Origin: an uncultured Flavobacterium sp.
GTDB lineage: Bacteria; Bacteroidota; Bacteroidia; Flavobacteriales; Flavobacteriaceae
NCBI RefSeq assembly: GCF_946478785.1
Contig: NZ_CAMLDD010000025.1
Coordinates: forward strand, 22,433-86,432
DNA length: 64,000 bases
Direction of reading: 5' to 3'
The first letter of the stretch is position 1. Every line of letters begins with the position of its first letter. Positions 9,411-14,099 of the stretch are shown here, piece by piece. The translations under genes were made by a program, and so were the position numbers. The notes under the pieces were generated by a model. It saw only the letters and a program-made list of their open reading frames with translations. It did no database searches and was not told the DNA's origin.

Positions 9411-10160
9411 TTAACCAACAAAATAAGGAGCCAATATATCTTCAAAATTATATAAACCTTCTTCTTTGTCTTTTAAATTTTCGGCTACAAATACTACACC
9501 GCTGCCAAAAGCTTCACGGGAAATACTCTCATGAATTAATCTGACAGTTTGAAAAGGAAACCCGAAAACAACTTCATGCTTGCCTACAATTCCACCGGCC
9601 CTTACCGAATTTATATCATTTTCTTCCAAATCCAATGTTTCTGCGATTTTAAGGGCTGTTCCTGAAACACCGTCTTTTCCCTTAAAATGTTCTTCAATGA
9701 TTTCGATATCAACCCACGGAGCAATTCTCTTCAAGAATTTAGATGCAAACAACAGATAATTCACTCCCAGCGTAATGTTTGGGCTCCAAAACACCGTCGT
9801 TTGCGTTGAAAGAGTCTTTAAAAAATCTTTTTCTTTGTTAGAATAATGAGAAATTGCAGAGATGATTTTTATCTTTCTTTTGCTGGCTTCCTCTCCATAA
9901 CTGTAAATTCCGGAAGCTGACGAAAAATCAATTATCATATCGACAGGGCTATTATCCAGTAATTCGGCTATAGATACAGACGTACTGGAGTAAATCTTTC
10001 CTGTCTCATCAGGGGTAATTCCTAAATATTCAGAAACAGTTCGATTATCTAAATTGCTGCTTTTTTTTAAAACCCATTTTAAGGAAAAATTTTTGTTTTG
10101 TAATATTACCGAAGCCACAGCTTTGCCTGTTTTCCCAAATCCTATTAAACCTATATTCAT
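9411..10160 (-). CDS. DapB-like dihydrodipicolinate reductase family protein
   Basis: A 249-residue protein with an N-terminal Rossmann motif (GLIGFGKTG, residues 4-12) and a DapB-type C-terminal domain. The active-site stretch reads EEHFKGKDGVSGTAL (156-170). His158 and Lys162 correspond to E. coli H159 and K163. The second conserved His (E. coli H160) is Phe159, and one residue is missing before SGTA. The VGKHEVVFG segment also fits DapB. It may be the lysine/diaminopimelate-pathway reductase or a divergent paralogue with another substrate. Because of the deviations I do not assign dapB. It is divergent from the oxygenase gene. Confidence 0.72.
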   Translation of the reverse strand: MNIGLIGFGKTGKAVASVILQNKNFSLKWVLKKSSNLDNRTVSEYLGITPDETGKIYSSTSVSIAELLDNSPVDMIIDFSSASGIYSYGEEASKRKIKIISAISHYSNKEKDFLKTLSTQTTVFWSPNITLGVNYLLFASKFLKRIAPWVDIEIIEEHFKGKDGVSGTALKIAETLDLEENDINSVRAGGIVGKHEVVFGFPFQTVRLIHESISREAFGSGVVFVAENLKDKEEGLYNFEDILAPYFVG

Positions 10161-10356
10161 GAATGCCTTTTTTTTATAAAAATAGATTTTTTTCTTGTAA
10201 AACAGCGTATTTATGGAATTGTTAACATTTTACAACCCAAAAAGAAGAGTTAAATTAAATTATAATCAAAAAACAAATATCTGTGGTTTTATTAAAATCA
10301 CAGTTTTGAAAGCCAATTTTAATATAATTTTTAAAATTCAAAACTAAAATATTCTC

Positions 10357-10364
10357 TACATTTG
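10357..10364 (+). promoter_or_regulatory. TACATTTG -7 element for the 2OG oxygenase gene
   Basis: TACATTTG fits TAnnTTTG and lies 50 bp before the ATG at 10415. No convincing TTG -33 element is seen at the usual distance. Confidence 0.5.
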
Positions 10365-10414
10365 TAAGGCAAAAGGTTTCAATGGCCTTTCACAATTAAA
10401 TAAAAATGTAAAGT

Positions 10415-11365
10415 ATGCAAAACATTCCTAGTGTAGACTTACGTGATTTCCTTTCGGACAACCCGGAACGTAAACAAAAATTTGTAAATGAAATCGGCAG
10501 TGCATTTGAAAACATTGGCTTCGTAGCCCTAAAAGGTCATTTTTTGGATGATCAGCTGGTAGGCGAGCTTTATGGAGAAATTCGAAAATTTTTCTCCTTG
10601 CCAATTGAGACCAAGCATCAATATGAAATTCCCGGAATTGGTGGTCAGAGAGGTTATGTTTCTTTTGGAAAAGAACATGCCAAAGGGCGCAAAGAGGGAG
10701 ATTTGAAAGAGTTCTGGCATTTTGGCCAATATGTTGATGAAACTTCAAAATATGCTTCAGAATATCCGGATAATGTTGAAGTAAAAGAATTACCACGTTT
10801 TAATATTGTAGGTAAAGAAGCCTATCAAATGTTAGAAAAAACAGGTGTTTATGTGTTAAGAGCCCTTGCTTTGCATTTAGGTCTGGATGAGTTTTATTTT
10901 GACCAATATGCCAAAGAAGGTAACTCAATTTTAAGACCAATACATTATCCTCCAATTACTTCTGAGCCAGAGAATGCCATTCGTGCAGCTGCTCACGGTG
11001 ATATTAACCTGATTACGCTTTTAATGGGAGCGCAGGGAAAAGGATTGCAGGTTCAAAATCATAATGGCGAATGGATTGATGCCATTGCAGAAGATGATGA
11101 ATTGGTAATTAACGTAGGCGATATGTTGTCAAGACATACTAATAACAAACTAAAATCGACTATACATCAGGTAGTTAATCCGCCAAGGGAATTATGGGGA
11201 ACTTCACGTTATTCGATTCCGTTTTTCATGCATCCTGTAAGCGATATGCGTCTGGATTGTTTAGAAAACTGTATTGATGCCGAAAACCCTAAGAAATTTG
11301 AAGATATTACAGCGGGAGATTATTTATATGAACGTTTAGTAGATTTAGGTTTAATAAAAAAATAA
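10415..11365 (+). CDS. 2-oxoglutarate/Fe(II) oxygenase, isopenicillin N synthase family
   Basis: A 316-residue cytosolic oxygenase. The N-terminal DIOX_N region (about 1-120) is followed by the jelly-roll domain with iron ligands H194 and D196 (AAHGDINL) and H251 (STIHQVVNP). R265 and S267 (SRYS) are the residues that bind 2-oxoglutarate in this family, which favours a 2OG-dependent enzyme over true IPNS chemistry. The natural substrate is unknown; such proteins are conserved in flavobacteria without biosynthetic clusters. A terminator (11389-11422) closes the unit directly downstream. Confidence 0.9.
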   Translation: MQNIPSVDLRDFLSDNPERKQKFVNEIGSAFENIGFVALKGHFLDDQLVGELYGEIRKFFSLPIETKHQYEIPGIGGQRGYVSFGKEHAKGRKEGDLKEFWHFGQYVDETSKYASEYPDNVEVKELPRFNIVGKEAYQMLEKTGVYVLRALALHLGLDEFYFDQYAKEGNSILRPIHYPPITSEPENAIRAAAHGDINLITLLMGAQGKGLQVQNHNGEWIDAIAEDDELVINVGDMLSRHTNNKLKSTIHQVVNPPRELWGTSRYSIPFFMHPVSDMRLDCLENCIDAENPKKFEDITAGDYLYERLVDLGLIKK

Positions 11366-11388
11366 TCTTTAAATTTACGAGAAGTAAT

Positions 11389-11422
11389 AAAAAGACATTG
11401 AGTTCATGCTTAATGTCTTTTT
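11389..11422 (+). terminator. Intrinsic terminator of the oxygenase gene
   Basis: AAAAAGACATT (11389-11399) pairs perfectly with AATGTCTTTTT (11412-11422), and the 3' arm ends in the T-run. It separates the oxygenase gene from the GxxExxY unit. Confidence 0.85.
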
Positions 11423-11436
11423 GCTTTATAAAATTA

Positions 11437-11873
11437 GAACGCCGATGACGCGGATTTTAAAATAATATTATGGGTATACTTTTACATGAAGAATTAACCA
11501 AGTCAATACTTAAAGTTTTTTATGATGTTTATAATGAATTAGGCTATGGATTCCTTGAAAGAGTTTATCAAAATTCACTATACTATGAACTTAAATCAAA
11601 CGGATTTAAAGTAGAAACTCAAAAAAGAATAAAGGTTTATTATAAAGAAATAGAAGTTGGTGAATATATTGCTGATATAATAGTTAATGATTTTGTCATA
11701 TTAGAATTAAAAGCACAAGAATACTTAATAGAAGCTAATGAATTTCAATTAATAAATTATTTAAAAGCTACAAATTGTGAGGTAGGACTCCTTTTAAATT
11801 TTGGAAAAAAACCTGAATTTATTAGAAAAGTATATCAAAATTTCAAAAAATAAAATCCGCGTTATCTGCGTTC
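11437..11873 (+). mobile_element. 437-bp GxxExxY unit bounded by 23-bp inverted repeats
   Basis: The left end is 11437-11459 (gaacgccgatgacgcggatt, then tta). The right end is 11851-11873 (taaaatccgcgttatctgcg, then ttc). They are reverse complements at 21 of 23 positions. The only gene inside starts 11 bp after the left repeat, and its stop codon is the first three bases of the right repeat. The unit sits between a terminator and the start of the SUI1-type gene, only 14 bp before that ATG. No transposase is encoded and no clear target-site duplication is visible, so autonomous movement is not shown. I call it a putative mobile or mobilised unit. Confidence 0.55.
11470..11853 (+). CDS. GxxExxY protein, PD-(D/E)XK nuclease-like
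   Basis: A 127-residue protein with the name-giving motif GFLERVY (Gly27, Glu30, Tyr33). The nuclease-fold signature is D69 in EYIADIIV and E79-L-K81 in VILELKA. This matches the GxxExxY family, which has a PD-(D/E)XK-like core and unknown function. The residues needed for metal-dependent nuclease chemistry appear intact. It is the sole gene inside a 23-bp inverted repeat pair and is more AT-rich than its neighbours. The previous transcription unit ends in a terminator, so it needs its own promoter, but no TAnnTTTG element was found in the 47 bp before the ATG. Confidence 0.88.
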   Translation: MGILLHEELTKSILKVFYDVYNELGYGFLERVYQNSLYYELKSNGFKVETQKRIKVYYKEIEVGEYIADIIVNDFVILELKAQEYLIEANEFQLINYLKATNCEVGLLLNFGKKPEFIRKVYQNFKK

Positions 11874-11887
11874 AAAAAAACATTCCA

Positions 11888-12220
11888 ATGGACTTACAAG
11901 ATCAATTAAAAAATTTATTTCCGGATCATATCGAATCTAATGAACCCGAAGAAGTTCAGGAACAGGAACATGTACTTTATGTGCAAAAAGAACCTATGAT
12001 CTGCAAATTCGAAAAAAGAAAAGGAAAACCCACGACCATAATCGAAGGCTACGAAGGATCTGATGAAGATTTTAAAATCCTGGCCAAAGAAATTAAAACA
12101 AAGCTAAGCGTTGGCGGAACTTTTAAGGATGACTCTATTATCATTCAGGGAGATTATCGTGATAAGATTATGGCAATTCTAAAAGAAAAAGGCTTTAAAA
12201 CAAAACGAGTTGGAGGTTAA
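11888..12220 (+). CDS. SUI1/eIF1-like translation factor (YciH type)
   Basis: A 110-residue protein starting MDLQDQLKNLFPDH. The eIF1/SUI1 fold occupies about residues 35-110: KRKGKPTTIIEGYEGSDED, then the glycine-rich GGTFKDDSIIIQGDYRDKI hairpin that is diagnostic of the family. Bacterial members are thought to influence start-codon fidelity but are non-essential. The longer frame from 11801 overlaps the upstream gene and is rejected. The upstream GxxExxY unit ends only 14 bp before the ATG, so its native 5' region may have been displaced. Confidence 0.87.
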   Translation: MDLQDQLKNLFPDHIESNEPEEVQEQEHVLYVQKEPMICKFEKRKGKPTTIIEGYEGSDEDFKILAKEIKTKLSVGGTFKDDSIIIQGDYRDKIMAILKEKGFKTKRVGG

Positions 12221-12316
12221 AAAGTTTTTTTAGTTTCATGTTTCAAGTTTCAAGTTGTCCATGAAGTTATAAAACCTTTGTCCCTTTGTTACTCAGAACC
12301 TTAGAACCTCAAAAAA

Positions 12317-13198
12317 ATGATACAAAAATCAGAATTAATACTAAATCCGGATGGAAGCGTTTATCACCTGAACCTTCGTCCTGAACACATCGCTAACGAT
12401 ATAATTTTTGTTGGAGATCAGAATAGGGTTGAAAAAATTACCCAGTTTTTTGATTCAATTGAATATTCTACACAAAAAAGGGAATTCAAAACCCAAACCG
12501 GAATTTACAAAGGTAAAAGAATAACAGTAATATCAACCGGAATCGGTCCTGATAATATTGATATTGTGCTAAACGAATTAGATGCTTTAGTCAATATTGA
12601 TTTAGAAACCCGTCTGCCAAAAGAAGAATTAACTTCCCTAAATATCATCCGGATTGGAACTTCTGGGTCCTTGCAGGCAGATATTCCTGTAGATAGTTTT
12701 GTAATGTCCAAATTTGGATTAGGATTAGACAATATGCTCCGCTCCTATTTGATTGATGGAATTTCAGAAGATGGTCTGGAAGATGCTTTTATAATGCATA
12801 CCAATTGGGATATTCGAAAAGGGAGACCGTATGCAATTCCGTGTTCAGAAAAATTAGAAAAAATAATTGAATCTGATAAAATATTCAAAGGTATCACAGC
12901 TACTTCCGGAGGATTTTATGGCCCACAAGGAAGAGTCTTGCGCTTAAATATTCAGGACGAGGAATTAAACAATAAAATGGATAATTTTAATTTTAATGAT
13001 AACCGAATCACCAATTTAGAAATGGAAACGGCAGCAATTTATGGATTATCAGCACTTTTAGGACATAATGCCTTATCTTTAAATGCTATCATCGCCAATC
13101 GTGCTTCAGGAACTTTTAGTGAAGACCCTTACAAAGCGGTTGATGAGTTGATTGCGTATACGTTGAATAAATTGGCAGAAAAACAATTAGATATTTAG
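12317..13198 (+). CDS. Nucleoside phosphorylase (PNP/UDP family)
   Basis: A 293-residue cytosolic enzyme of the PNP_UDP_1 fold. The STGIGPDNIDIVLNELDAL segment is the typical phosphate/active-site region, IRIGTSGSLQADIPVDSFV follows, and the C-terminal NLEMETAAIYGLSALLGH has the MET motif that contacts ribose. It most resembles uridine-phosphorylase-like members that cleave nucleosides to base and ribose-1-phosphate in salvage. Base specificity is not readable. Upstream (12230-12300) lies a short repeat related to the TTTCAAG family. Confidence 0.87.
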   Translation: MIQKSELILNPDGSVYHLNLRPEHIANDIIFVGDQNRVEKITQFFDSIEYSTQKREFKTQTGIYKGKRITVISTGIGPDNIDIVLNELDALVNIDLETRLPKEELTSLNIIRIGTSGSLQADIPVDSFVMSKFGLGLDNMLRSYLIDGISEDGLEDAFIMHTNWDIRKGRPYAIPCSEKLEKIIESDKIFKGITATSGGFYGPQGRVLRLNIQDEELNNKMDNFNFNDNRITNLEMETAAIYGLSALLGHNALSLNAIIANRASGTFSEDPYKAVDELIAYTLNKLAEKQLDI

Positions 13199-13237
13199 TC
13201 CATTTAAAAATTAGATAATTGGTTTAAAATTAAAAAA

Positions 13238-13618
13238 ATGATTTTAAGAGTTGCGCGACACACCAACAATTTAGAAATAATTGAAAATTTTTACATCAAT
13301 GTTTTGGGTTTTGAAAAACTCGGCGGTTTTCAAAATCATAATAATTATGATGGTATTTTTATTGGAATACCTGATTCAGACTGGCATTTTGAATTCACTC
13401 AATCTGAAACTAAAGCAGACCATACATTTGATGAAGATGATATTATTGTCCTTTATCCCGATACAATTAGAAAATATAATATGTTGTTAGAGAGATTTTA
13501 TGATCATGAAATTTCGAGGATAACTGCAATAAATCCGTATTGGAATGAAAATGGACAAATGTTCCTGGATCCTGATGGTTATCGTATTGTAATATCGCCT
13601 TTAAAAGCAACAAATTAA
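13238..13618 (+). CDS. VOC family (glyoxalase/bleomycin-resistance fold) protein
   Basis: A 126-residue single VOC domain. It opens with RVARHTNNLEIIENFYINVLGFEKLGG, the classic first strand-helix-strand, and ends FLDPDGYRIVISP, the conserved closing strand with the metal-ligand region. Metal-dependent lyase, dioxygenase or sequestering roles are all possible. It is followed 8 bp later by a DUF4265 gene, so the two are probably co-transcribed. Confidence 0.85.
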   Translation: MILRVARHTNNLEIIENFYINVLGFEKLGGFQNHNNYDGIFIGIPDSDWHFEFTQSETKADHTFDEDDIIVLYPDTIRKYNMLLERFYDHEISRITAINPYWNENGQMFLDPDGYRIVISPLKATN

Positions 13619-13625
13619 TTACAGA

Positions 13626-14099
13626 ATGACAGAAACACACACAAAAGTCCTATTTAGATATTATAGTGATTTATTAGAAGAAACAGTTGTAGAAACGATG
13701 TGGGCAGAAATTATCGATTTAGAAAAAGGATATTTCAAGTTGGATAATATTCCTTTTTTTGGTCCTCTAATCGCTACAGACGATATTTTCTTTGCAGAAT
13801 ATGATAAAGATGAAGAACGTCTGGTTTACAAAAAGACAATAGAAAGTTTTGGTAATTCAATTCTTCAGGTTGTAATTTTAGAAAAAGGTTTTAACAAGGA
13901 AATAATCAGTGAAAAACTAAAGTCAATTAATTGTTTATCAGAAAGTTTGAACGAAACCTTATTTGCAGTTGAAATTCTAAAAGAAGTAGATTATTCCATT
14001 GTAAAAAACCTTTTAAGTGAATATGAAGCGACTTCAATAATTGATTTTGCAGAACCCTGTCTTTCAGAAAAACACAGAACAGATTTATTAAAAAACTAA
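13626..14099 (+). CDS. DUF4265 domain protein
   Basis: A 157-residue acidic cytosolic protein. The N-terminal part (VLFRYYSDLLEETVVETMWA, then NIPFFGPLIATDDIFFAEYD) matches DUF4265, a family of unknown function seen with immunity-like or stress genes in some bacteria. No catalytic motif, signal or membrane segment is present. It is 8 bp downstream of the VOC gene. DUF4265 proteins can be immunity proteins in toxin clusters, but no toxin is nearby and I do not infer that role here. Confidence 0.75.
   Translation: MTETHTKVLFRYYSDLLEETVVETMWAEIIDLEKGYFKLDNIPFFGPLIATDDIFFAEYDKDEERLVYKKTIESFGNSILQVVILEKGFNKEIISEKLKSINCLSESLNETLFAVEILKEVDYSIVKNLLSEYEATSIIDFAEPCLSEKHRTDLLKN

Follow-up and report, generated by a model that had tools for sequence, protein, structure and literature searches.

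The window, by which we mean the whole 64-kb stretch of DNA analysed, contains a compact unit in which a single gene of the GxxExxY family is enclosed by two inverted repeat arms. The gene (11470..11853, plus strand, 127 aa), identified as an open reading frame and by TIGR04256, PF13366, alignment and an AlphaFold2 model, is preceded by a left arm at 11434..11459 (plus strand) and followed by a right arm at 11851..11876 (minus strand) that overlaps its stop codon; the pair was found as an inverted repeat and recovered by a word scan. According to the inverted-repeat scan the arms are 26 nt each, 88% complementary and 391 nt apart. In each, the word C[AG]CN[AG]A[GT] occurs twice at a spacing of 9 nt; the copies can be read from the sequence in forward orientation at 11440-11446 and 11449-11455 and in inverted orientation at 11855-11861 and 11864-11870. 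Because their core (11437-11459 and 11851-11873) agrees at 21 of 23 bases, the 437-bp unit with 23-bp inverted ends described in the initial annotation stands, as does its remark that the right repeat starts at the stop codon: the right arm begins at the TAA of the GxxExxY gene. That annotation had also set the unit precisely between a terminator and the next gene, and the same boundaries were recovered here. On the left, a 2OG-Fe(II) oxygenase gene (10415-11365; open reading frame, Pfam) is followed by its terminator-like hairpin at 11389..11422 (plus strand; an inverted repeat with arms 11389-11402 and 11409-11422), which lies outside the unit and forms its left boundary; on the right, downstream of the unit, an SUI1 reading frame (PF01253; open reading frame, Pfam) starts at 11888.

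When up to three mismatches are allowed, the arm pattern occurs just twice in the 64 kb, with 0.00 occurrences expected from 100 shuffles, and the GxxExxY unit is the sole pair of complementary word-built arms that the word scan finds in the window. The predicted RNA fold of the unit has a z score of -5.7. The unit does not qualify as a DNA transposon or insertion sequence, since the GxxExxY gene is the only reading frame between the window arms and no transposase is found there; nor is it a 23S rRNA intervening sequence (S23), since it lies between two protein genes and not in a 23S gene, and its protein belongs to PF13366. A search of Rfam with positions 10000-14000 of the window returned two matches, both far below the gathering threshold.

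The window protein scores 127.7 bits against TIGR04256 (cut-off 35) and 132.1 bits against PF13366 (PDDEXK_3; cut-off 22), the only Pfam family assigned to it. A nuclease-like fold with D69, E79 and K81 had been suggested for this protein, and the intact motif and the predicted structure favour that suggestion: the three residues are conserved without exception in an alignment of family members (50 of 50) hand-picked from the collected loci, and the AlphaFold2 model (pLDDT 93.2, pTM 0.86) has fold matches that, together with the invariant residues, point to a PD-(D/E)XK enzyme. The nucleases listed as closest are SSO0001 (4ic1), which we take to be a Cas4 protein, and the archaeal Hjc (1gef). 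A PDB sequence search with the window protein gave no convincing match, a phage collection gave none at E 1e-5, and PADLOC gave nothing beyond a weak Cas4b match (E 0.0015). The dN/dS of the gene is 0.05 against two of its relatives (L001 and L002) and lies between 0.025 and 0.074 over seven pairs, with dS saturated in some; such low values imply that the protein works, be it for the host or for the system. Genes of the family were present in 73 of the 148 genomes of a phylum draw and in 97 of the 121 genomes of a genus draw.

The oxygenase–SUI1 site in relatives

In Flavobacterium sp. CF136, the closest named relative identified, a 96% identical protein is encoded at the same site, and an oxygenase gene lies upstream of GxxExxY in 42 of the 80 loci collected by the window-protein search. 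The site itself was surveyed through 90 SUI1 loci (30 + 60) of the genus draw, in which the more similar SUI1 genes were favoured. Among the 82 oxygenase–SUI1 intervals that could be read, the gene was present in 15 and absent from 67, the closest relatives included, and the repeats were not simply degraded; the empty sites for which a comparison of relatives had been proposed are hence at hand, and the opposite picture, of a gene present in all relatives between decaying repeats, is not what was found. In the closest relatives (L142-L168) the interval is 82-133 bp long and lacks word-arms. Both arms are kept without the gene at 4 of the 67 gene-less sites (L170, L177, L191 and L202), and weaker traces of arms occur at L180, L181, L182 and L216. 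The state of the site thus ranges over full, arms-only and empty. The filled locus L002 and the empty locus L168 can be aligned until just before the left arm, and in this one pair no target-site duplication is evident. The entire site table has 125 rows, duplicates included, and its 58 filled rows represent 50 distinct sequences; besides the 15 filled sites of the survey they comprise 43 rows for the window and for loci added on account of their GxxExxY gene. As side observations, the empty sites L142-L168 have a different periodic hairpin in the interval, AAATTCCAAATTCC...GGAATTTGGAATTT, and reverse words are multiplied in the interval of L019 (12 copies), L076 (23) and L079 (16).

In a tree of 85 proteins, built on 133 columns, without the early-stop sequence L012, and with the direction of change not readable, the label "at this site" requires four changes, forced by starred branches; one of them is owed to L015, counted as a non-site gene merely for lying on a contig that breaks off within it, which leaves three changes. 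Two lineages occupy the oxygenase–SUI1 site, that of the window and a second one (18 rows, L048 to L222) which shares one starred clade with GxxExxY genes from other sites; the metagenome-bin locus L038 also clusters with these non-site genes. The descent of the gene appears to be mostly vertical.

The two arms of a unit have been compared with each other and with those of other species at 48 of the 50 distinct filled sites, L187 and L214 being skipped. Within a unit the mean score is 23.5, with a range of 21-26 across all classes of species distance, and the cross score between the left arm of one species and the right arm of another drops from 25 to 15 with distance. At 60-70% gene identity, for example, the within-unit score is 24.3, the cross score 14.8, and the scores for orthologous arms are 20.8 (left-left) and 15.0 (right-right). 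The within-unit score was higher than the cross score in 608 of 622 species pairs and higher than both orthologous scores in 444, pairs that are not independent since they have species in common. In close species the orthologous arms are, as expected, more similar than a unit's own two arms. The arms vary between species and yet remain complementary within each unit, which is to say that they evolve in concert. Plain decay of an ancient insertion was considered and rejected, since after such decay the two arms within a unit should resemble each other no more than arms compared across species. Concerted arms could be produced by template switching, a known way of keeping stems paired (PMC8794818), by cutting and repair, or by selection for the stem.

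A shared word and its dispersed hairpins

Inverted arms that score beyond the 99th percentile of a set of 822 random intervals are found in both sets of GxxExxY loci (57 of 79 and 19 of 29) and at 22 of 29 S23 loci. The word, at least twice forward upstream and at least twice reverse downstream, accompanies 56 of the 79 GxxExxY loci (a set from the window-protein search that includes duplicates and orthologues) and 15 of the 29, and this arrangement was seen at 0 of 29 S23 loci and in 0 of 834 random control intervals. A phylum-wide draw of 30 GxxExxY loci, which included best-scoring copies and a few from the genus Flavobacterium, has the word at least twice per side in 23 and at least once per side in 29. 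Genes of this family elsewhere do have like ends, as the idea of a unit with its own termini would lead one to expect, and across Bacteroidota the gene and the word-arms go together. In the named plasmid records, seven of eight of which were read (Persicobacter was left out), clear arms occur in two of the seven, those of Bacteroides and Bernardetia, both Bacteroidota; arms are absent from the records of Prevotella, Sphingomonas, Fusobacteria and Treponema, and in that of Gemmatirosa (L318) the reading frame is badly delimited and the arms are ambiguous. Most named records outside Bacteroidota are without arms; such arms do occur at single loci of genomes reached via Ignavibacteria (L083) and Delongbacteria (L098) records. 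Searches of the open-licence literature turned up no account of such arms at genes of this family.

The arms also exist without the gene, dispersed as hairpins of about 130 nt. When 20 regions around strict matches to a two-word pattern were examined in six genomes, a GxxExxY gene was found in 2; by inspection, 10 of the remaining 18 have both arms and no gene (one of them inside-out) and 8 have a single arm or pieces. These hairpins have two stems, one outer and one inner, together with a loop and a small hairpin on either arm, and in the gene-bearing units the GxxExxY gene occupies the position of the loop. From ten copies a structure of five helices was derived, in which the double-change cells number 22, versus 11.1 in shuffled alignments and at most 8 in slid ones, and RNA folding of solo hairpins gives z scores from -5.6 to -9.6 in four of four cases; Rfam had 0 matches at the gathering threshold for four hairpin loci. 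One genome (G020) has at least 16 hairpin places whose alignment has sharp ends (best pair 95% identical, median 84%), and a second has four places with a likewise sharp-ended alignment. A further pair shares 96% identity along 178 bp; the insertion that forms its query copy is missing from 8 of 8 relatives examined, in which the corresponding place is short (27-92 bp between the flank matches). Two hairpins have unusual forms: in the inside-out copy at L243 (~813-949) the right arm precedes the left, and in the solo hairpin at L249 (~897-1120) an unrelated second inverted repeat is nested in the loop.

A scan of 800 kb of one GxxExxY genome revealed 23 complementary pairs in the expected order and 2 inside-out, with 0 under a Markov null; the figure of 23 uses each right arm once (26 if arms are shared), and one pair has a 1112-nt gap. 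Two of the three GxxExxY reading frames in these 800 kb have clear arms (inverted-repeat scores 19.0 and 21.0), and the third has weak ones (10.0). A second GxxExxY genome has 3 complementary pairs in 200 kb, and three genomes without the gene, at 200 kb each and one of them of quite different G+C, have 0.

A model of the hairpin was found in 35 of 121 genomes, in a scan that scored at most 28 candidates per genome on both strands, its per-genome numbers being neither full counts nor counts of places. These are 35 of the 97 GxxExxY genomes versus 0 of the 24 without the gene (p = 9e-5, a statistic that ignores kinship); among genomes of up to 4.3 Mb the figures are 10 of 65 versus 0 of 24 (p = 0.035, again ignoring kinship). 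The modelled hairpin is absent from 62 of the 97 GxxExxY genomes, that of CF136 (G001) among them. A triple-word pattern, with 227 matches against 8 for its reversal, occurs in 44 of the 97 GxxExxY genomes versus 3 of the 24 others (p = 0.002), four of these 24 having been identified by elimination against the triple-word results; in G091, one of the three exceptions, the matches listed are a simple CACCAATCT-type repeat. Both halves of the solo-hairpin consensus are matched, at a score of at least 22, by 29 loci: 15 are non-site genes from the clade that includes the second lineage, 12 belong to the second lineage at the site itself, and the last 2 represent a single window-lineage locus in duplicate. 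The type of arm follows the lineage of the gene and not the site, and the window arms agree with just part of the consensus.

A putative nuclease with its own repeat

The closest parallel is the REPIN–RAYT system, in which a gene is flanked by inverted repeats that are also found as dispersed extragenic hairpins, and is itself largely vertical while the hairpins spread (PMC3116915). The repeats that flank the GxxExxY gene likewise recur as dispersed extragenic hairpins, and a mainly vertical gene and several repeat–gene pairs per genome are further likenesses. The enzyme differs, however, with a predicted PD-(D/E)XK fold in place of the Y1 (HUH) transposase of the RAYTs; so does the repeat, a word C[AG]CN[AG]A[GT] every ~9 nt instead of a GTAG-tagged REP; and the RAYT-like genes of the same genus have ends unlike those of GxxExxY. 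The unit is not a member of the REPIN–RAYT family, since the defining Y1/HUH transposase (PF01797) is absent and Pfam gives PF13366 only. We read it, with a probability of about 0.5, as the resident copy of a REPIN–RAYT-like two-part system, formed by a PD-(D/E)XK nuclease gene and hairpins of an iterated word on which the nuclease would act. The association of gene and hairpin is observed directly.

In such a system the GxxExxY nuclease would recognise the iterated word or the extruded hairpin, perhaps as a four-way structure formed by the two arms and the small hairpin on each, and then nick or cut it. Re-insertion or repair could disperse the gene-less hairpins, as has been proposed for RAYTs with REPINs, and arms that were cut might be repaired from another copy, which would restore the gene between lone arms and make the two arms alike. 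Re-homing of this kind is invoked because the site has been occupied repeatedly; re-occupied and arms-only sites would also suit a homing endonuclease element, whose nuclease cleaves alleles that lack the element, so that repair copies it into them. A REPIN–RAYT-like scheme with a PD-(D/E)XK enzyme and re-homing is the most economical model. More tentatively, GxxExxY may represent a second and unrelated kind of REP enzyme, which recognises iterated-word hairpins, spreads gene-less copies through Bacteroidota genomes and re-homes into lone arms, with arms and gene co-evolving. If this were true, a REPIN–RAYT-type partnership would have arisen independently with another enzyme, and a large class of Bacteroidota palindromic repeats would be accounted for; the word and its abundant hairpins in any event provide GxxExxY, a widespread family of unknown function, with a testable candidate substrate.

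The initial annotation had seen in the unit a mobile element without a transposase. That gene and arms form a unit with no transposase inside, and that empty sites exist, agrees with this; a recent jump of the window copy is not supported, given the orthologues at the same site, the dN/dS of 0.05, the short arms and a dispersed part that is mostly gene-less hairpin. Its phrase "very small selfish element" is too narrow.

The strong constraint at a fixed site also fits a function for the host. The arms could pair in the transcript to form a long stem, with the reading frame in its loop, and this stem would serve to insulate, process or stabilise the message, so that selection on the stem, and not mobility, would maintain them. 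The covarying stems, the folding scores of the solo hairpins and of the window unit, the concerted arms and the constrained protein are all compatible with such a host-serving RNA, but the many gene-less copies at unrelated places and the arms retained at some sites after loss of the gene make it an unlikely explanation. We give similarly little credence to the gene being cargo of ordinary MITEs, moved by a transposase encoded elsewhere in the genome and with arms kept alike by template switching, which is able to keep stems paired (PMC8794818). Like MITEs and other small mobile repeats, the solo hairpins are short, dispersed and gene-less, and comparable arms surround another gene in a viral contig (L356); but no parent transposon was found for these hairpins, a nuclease-fold gene has the same ends, no transposase was met between such arms in a non-exhaustive search, and the word is linked to GxxExxY across the phylum, with no such link for the other families tested (S23 0/29, Y1_Tnp 0/28).

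It is far less probable that the hairpins are REPINs of RAYT-like Y1 transposases in the same genomes. Y1_Tnp matches are present in 81 of the 121 genomes; by a count from lists, 29 of the 35 genomes with the hairpin have one, versus 52 of the 86 others, so that GxxExxY does not stand out by co-occurrence alone. It does stand out by the ends of the genes: the word arrangement occurs at 0 of 28 Y1_Tnp loci (L444-L473, 30 loci, of which L458 and L460 were dropped), and 9 of these 28 carry inverted ends of a different kind, in several cases with GTAG-type words. Moreover, six of the 35 hairpin genomes (G020, with its 16 or more copies, G028, G045, G069, G070 and G123) are without any Y1_Tnp match at a threshold of E 1e-5, and RAYT-like genes were rejected as partners of the hairpin. 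Hairpins are frequent in bacterial intergenic regions and a terminator-like one is present at the site, but the idea that the repeat arose by chance, or that the arms are simple terminators next to an ordinary gene, can be dismissed, given 0.00 occurrences expected by shuffling, 0 of 834 controls, and arms 400 nt apart, which make no terminator.

Arms of comparable design also surround genes of other families. In the viral contig (L356:1080-2421) they enclose an AbiJ_NTD4 / candidate defence PDC-S32 gene (reading frame 1380-2213), and at L359 and L363, which have a neighbouring reading frame in common, the arms are present and this gene is absent. The S23 loci (TIGR02436) resemble the GxxExxY units in that inverted, iterated arms enclose a small reading frame (22 of 29 exceed the 99th percentile of random intervals), and differ in the unrelated protein and in the words of the arms; at L111-L140 four-helix-bundle genes lie between such arms. 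At a conserved S23 site (L113-L118) the arm words vary from one species to another, yet the two arms of each locus agree.
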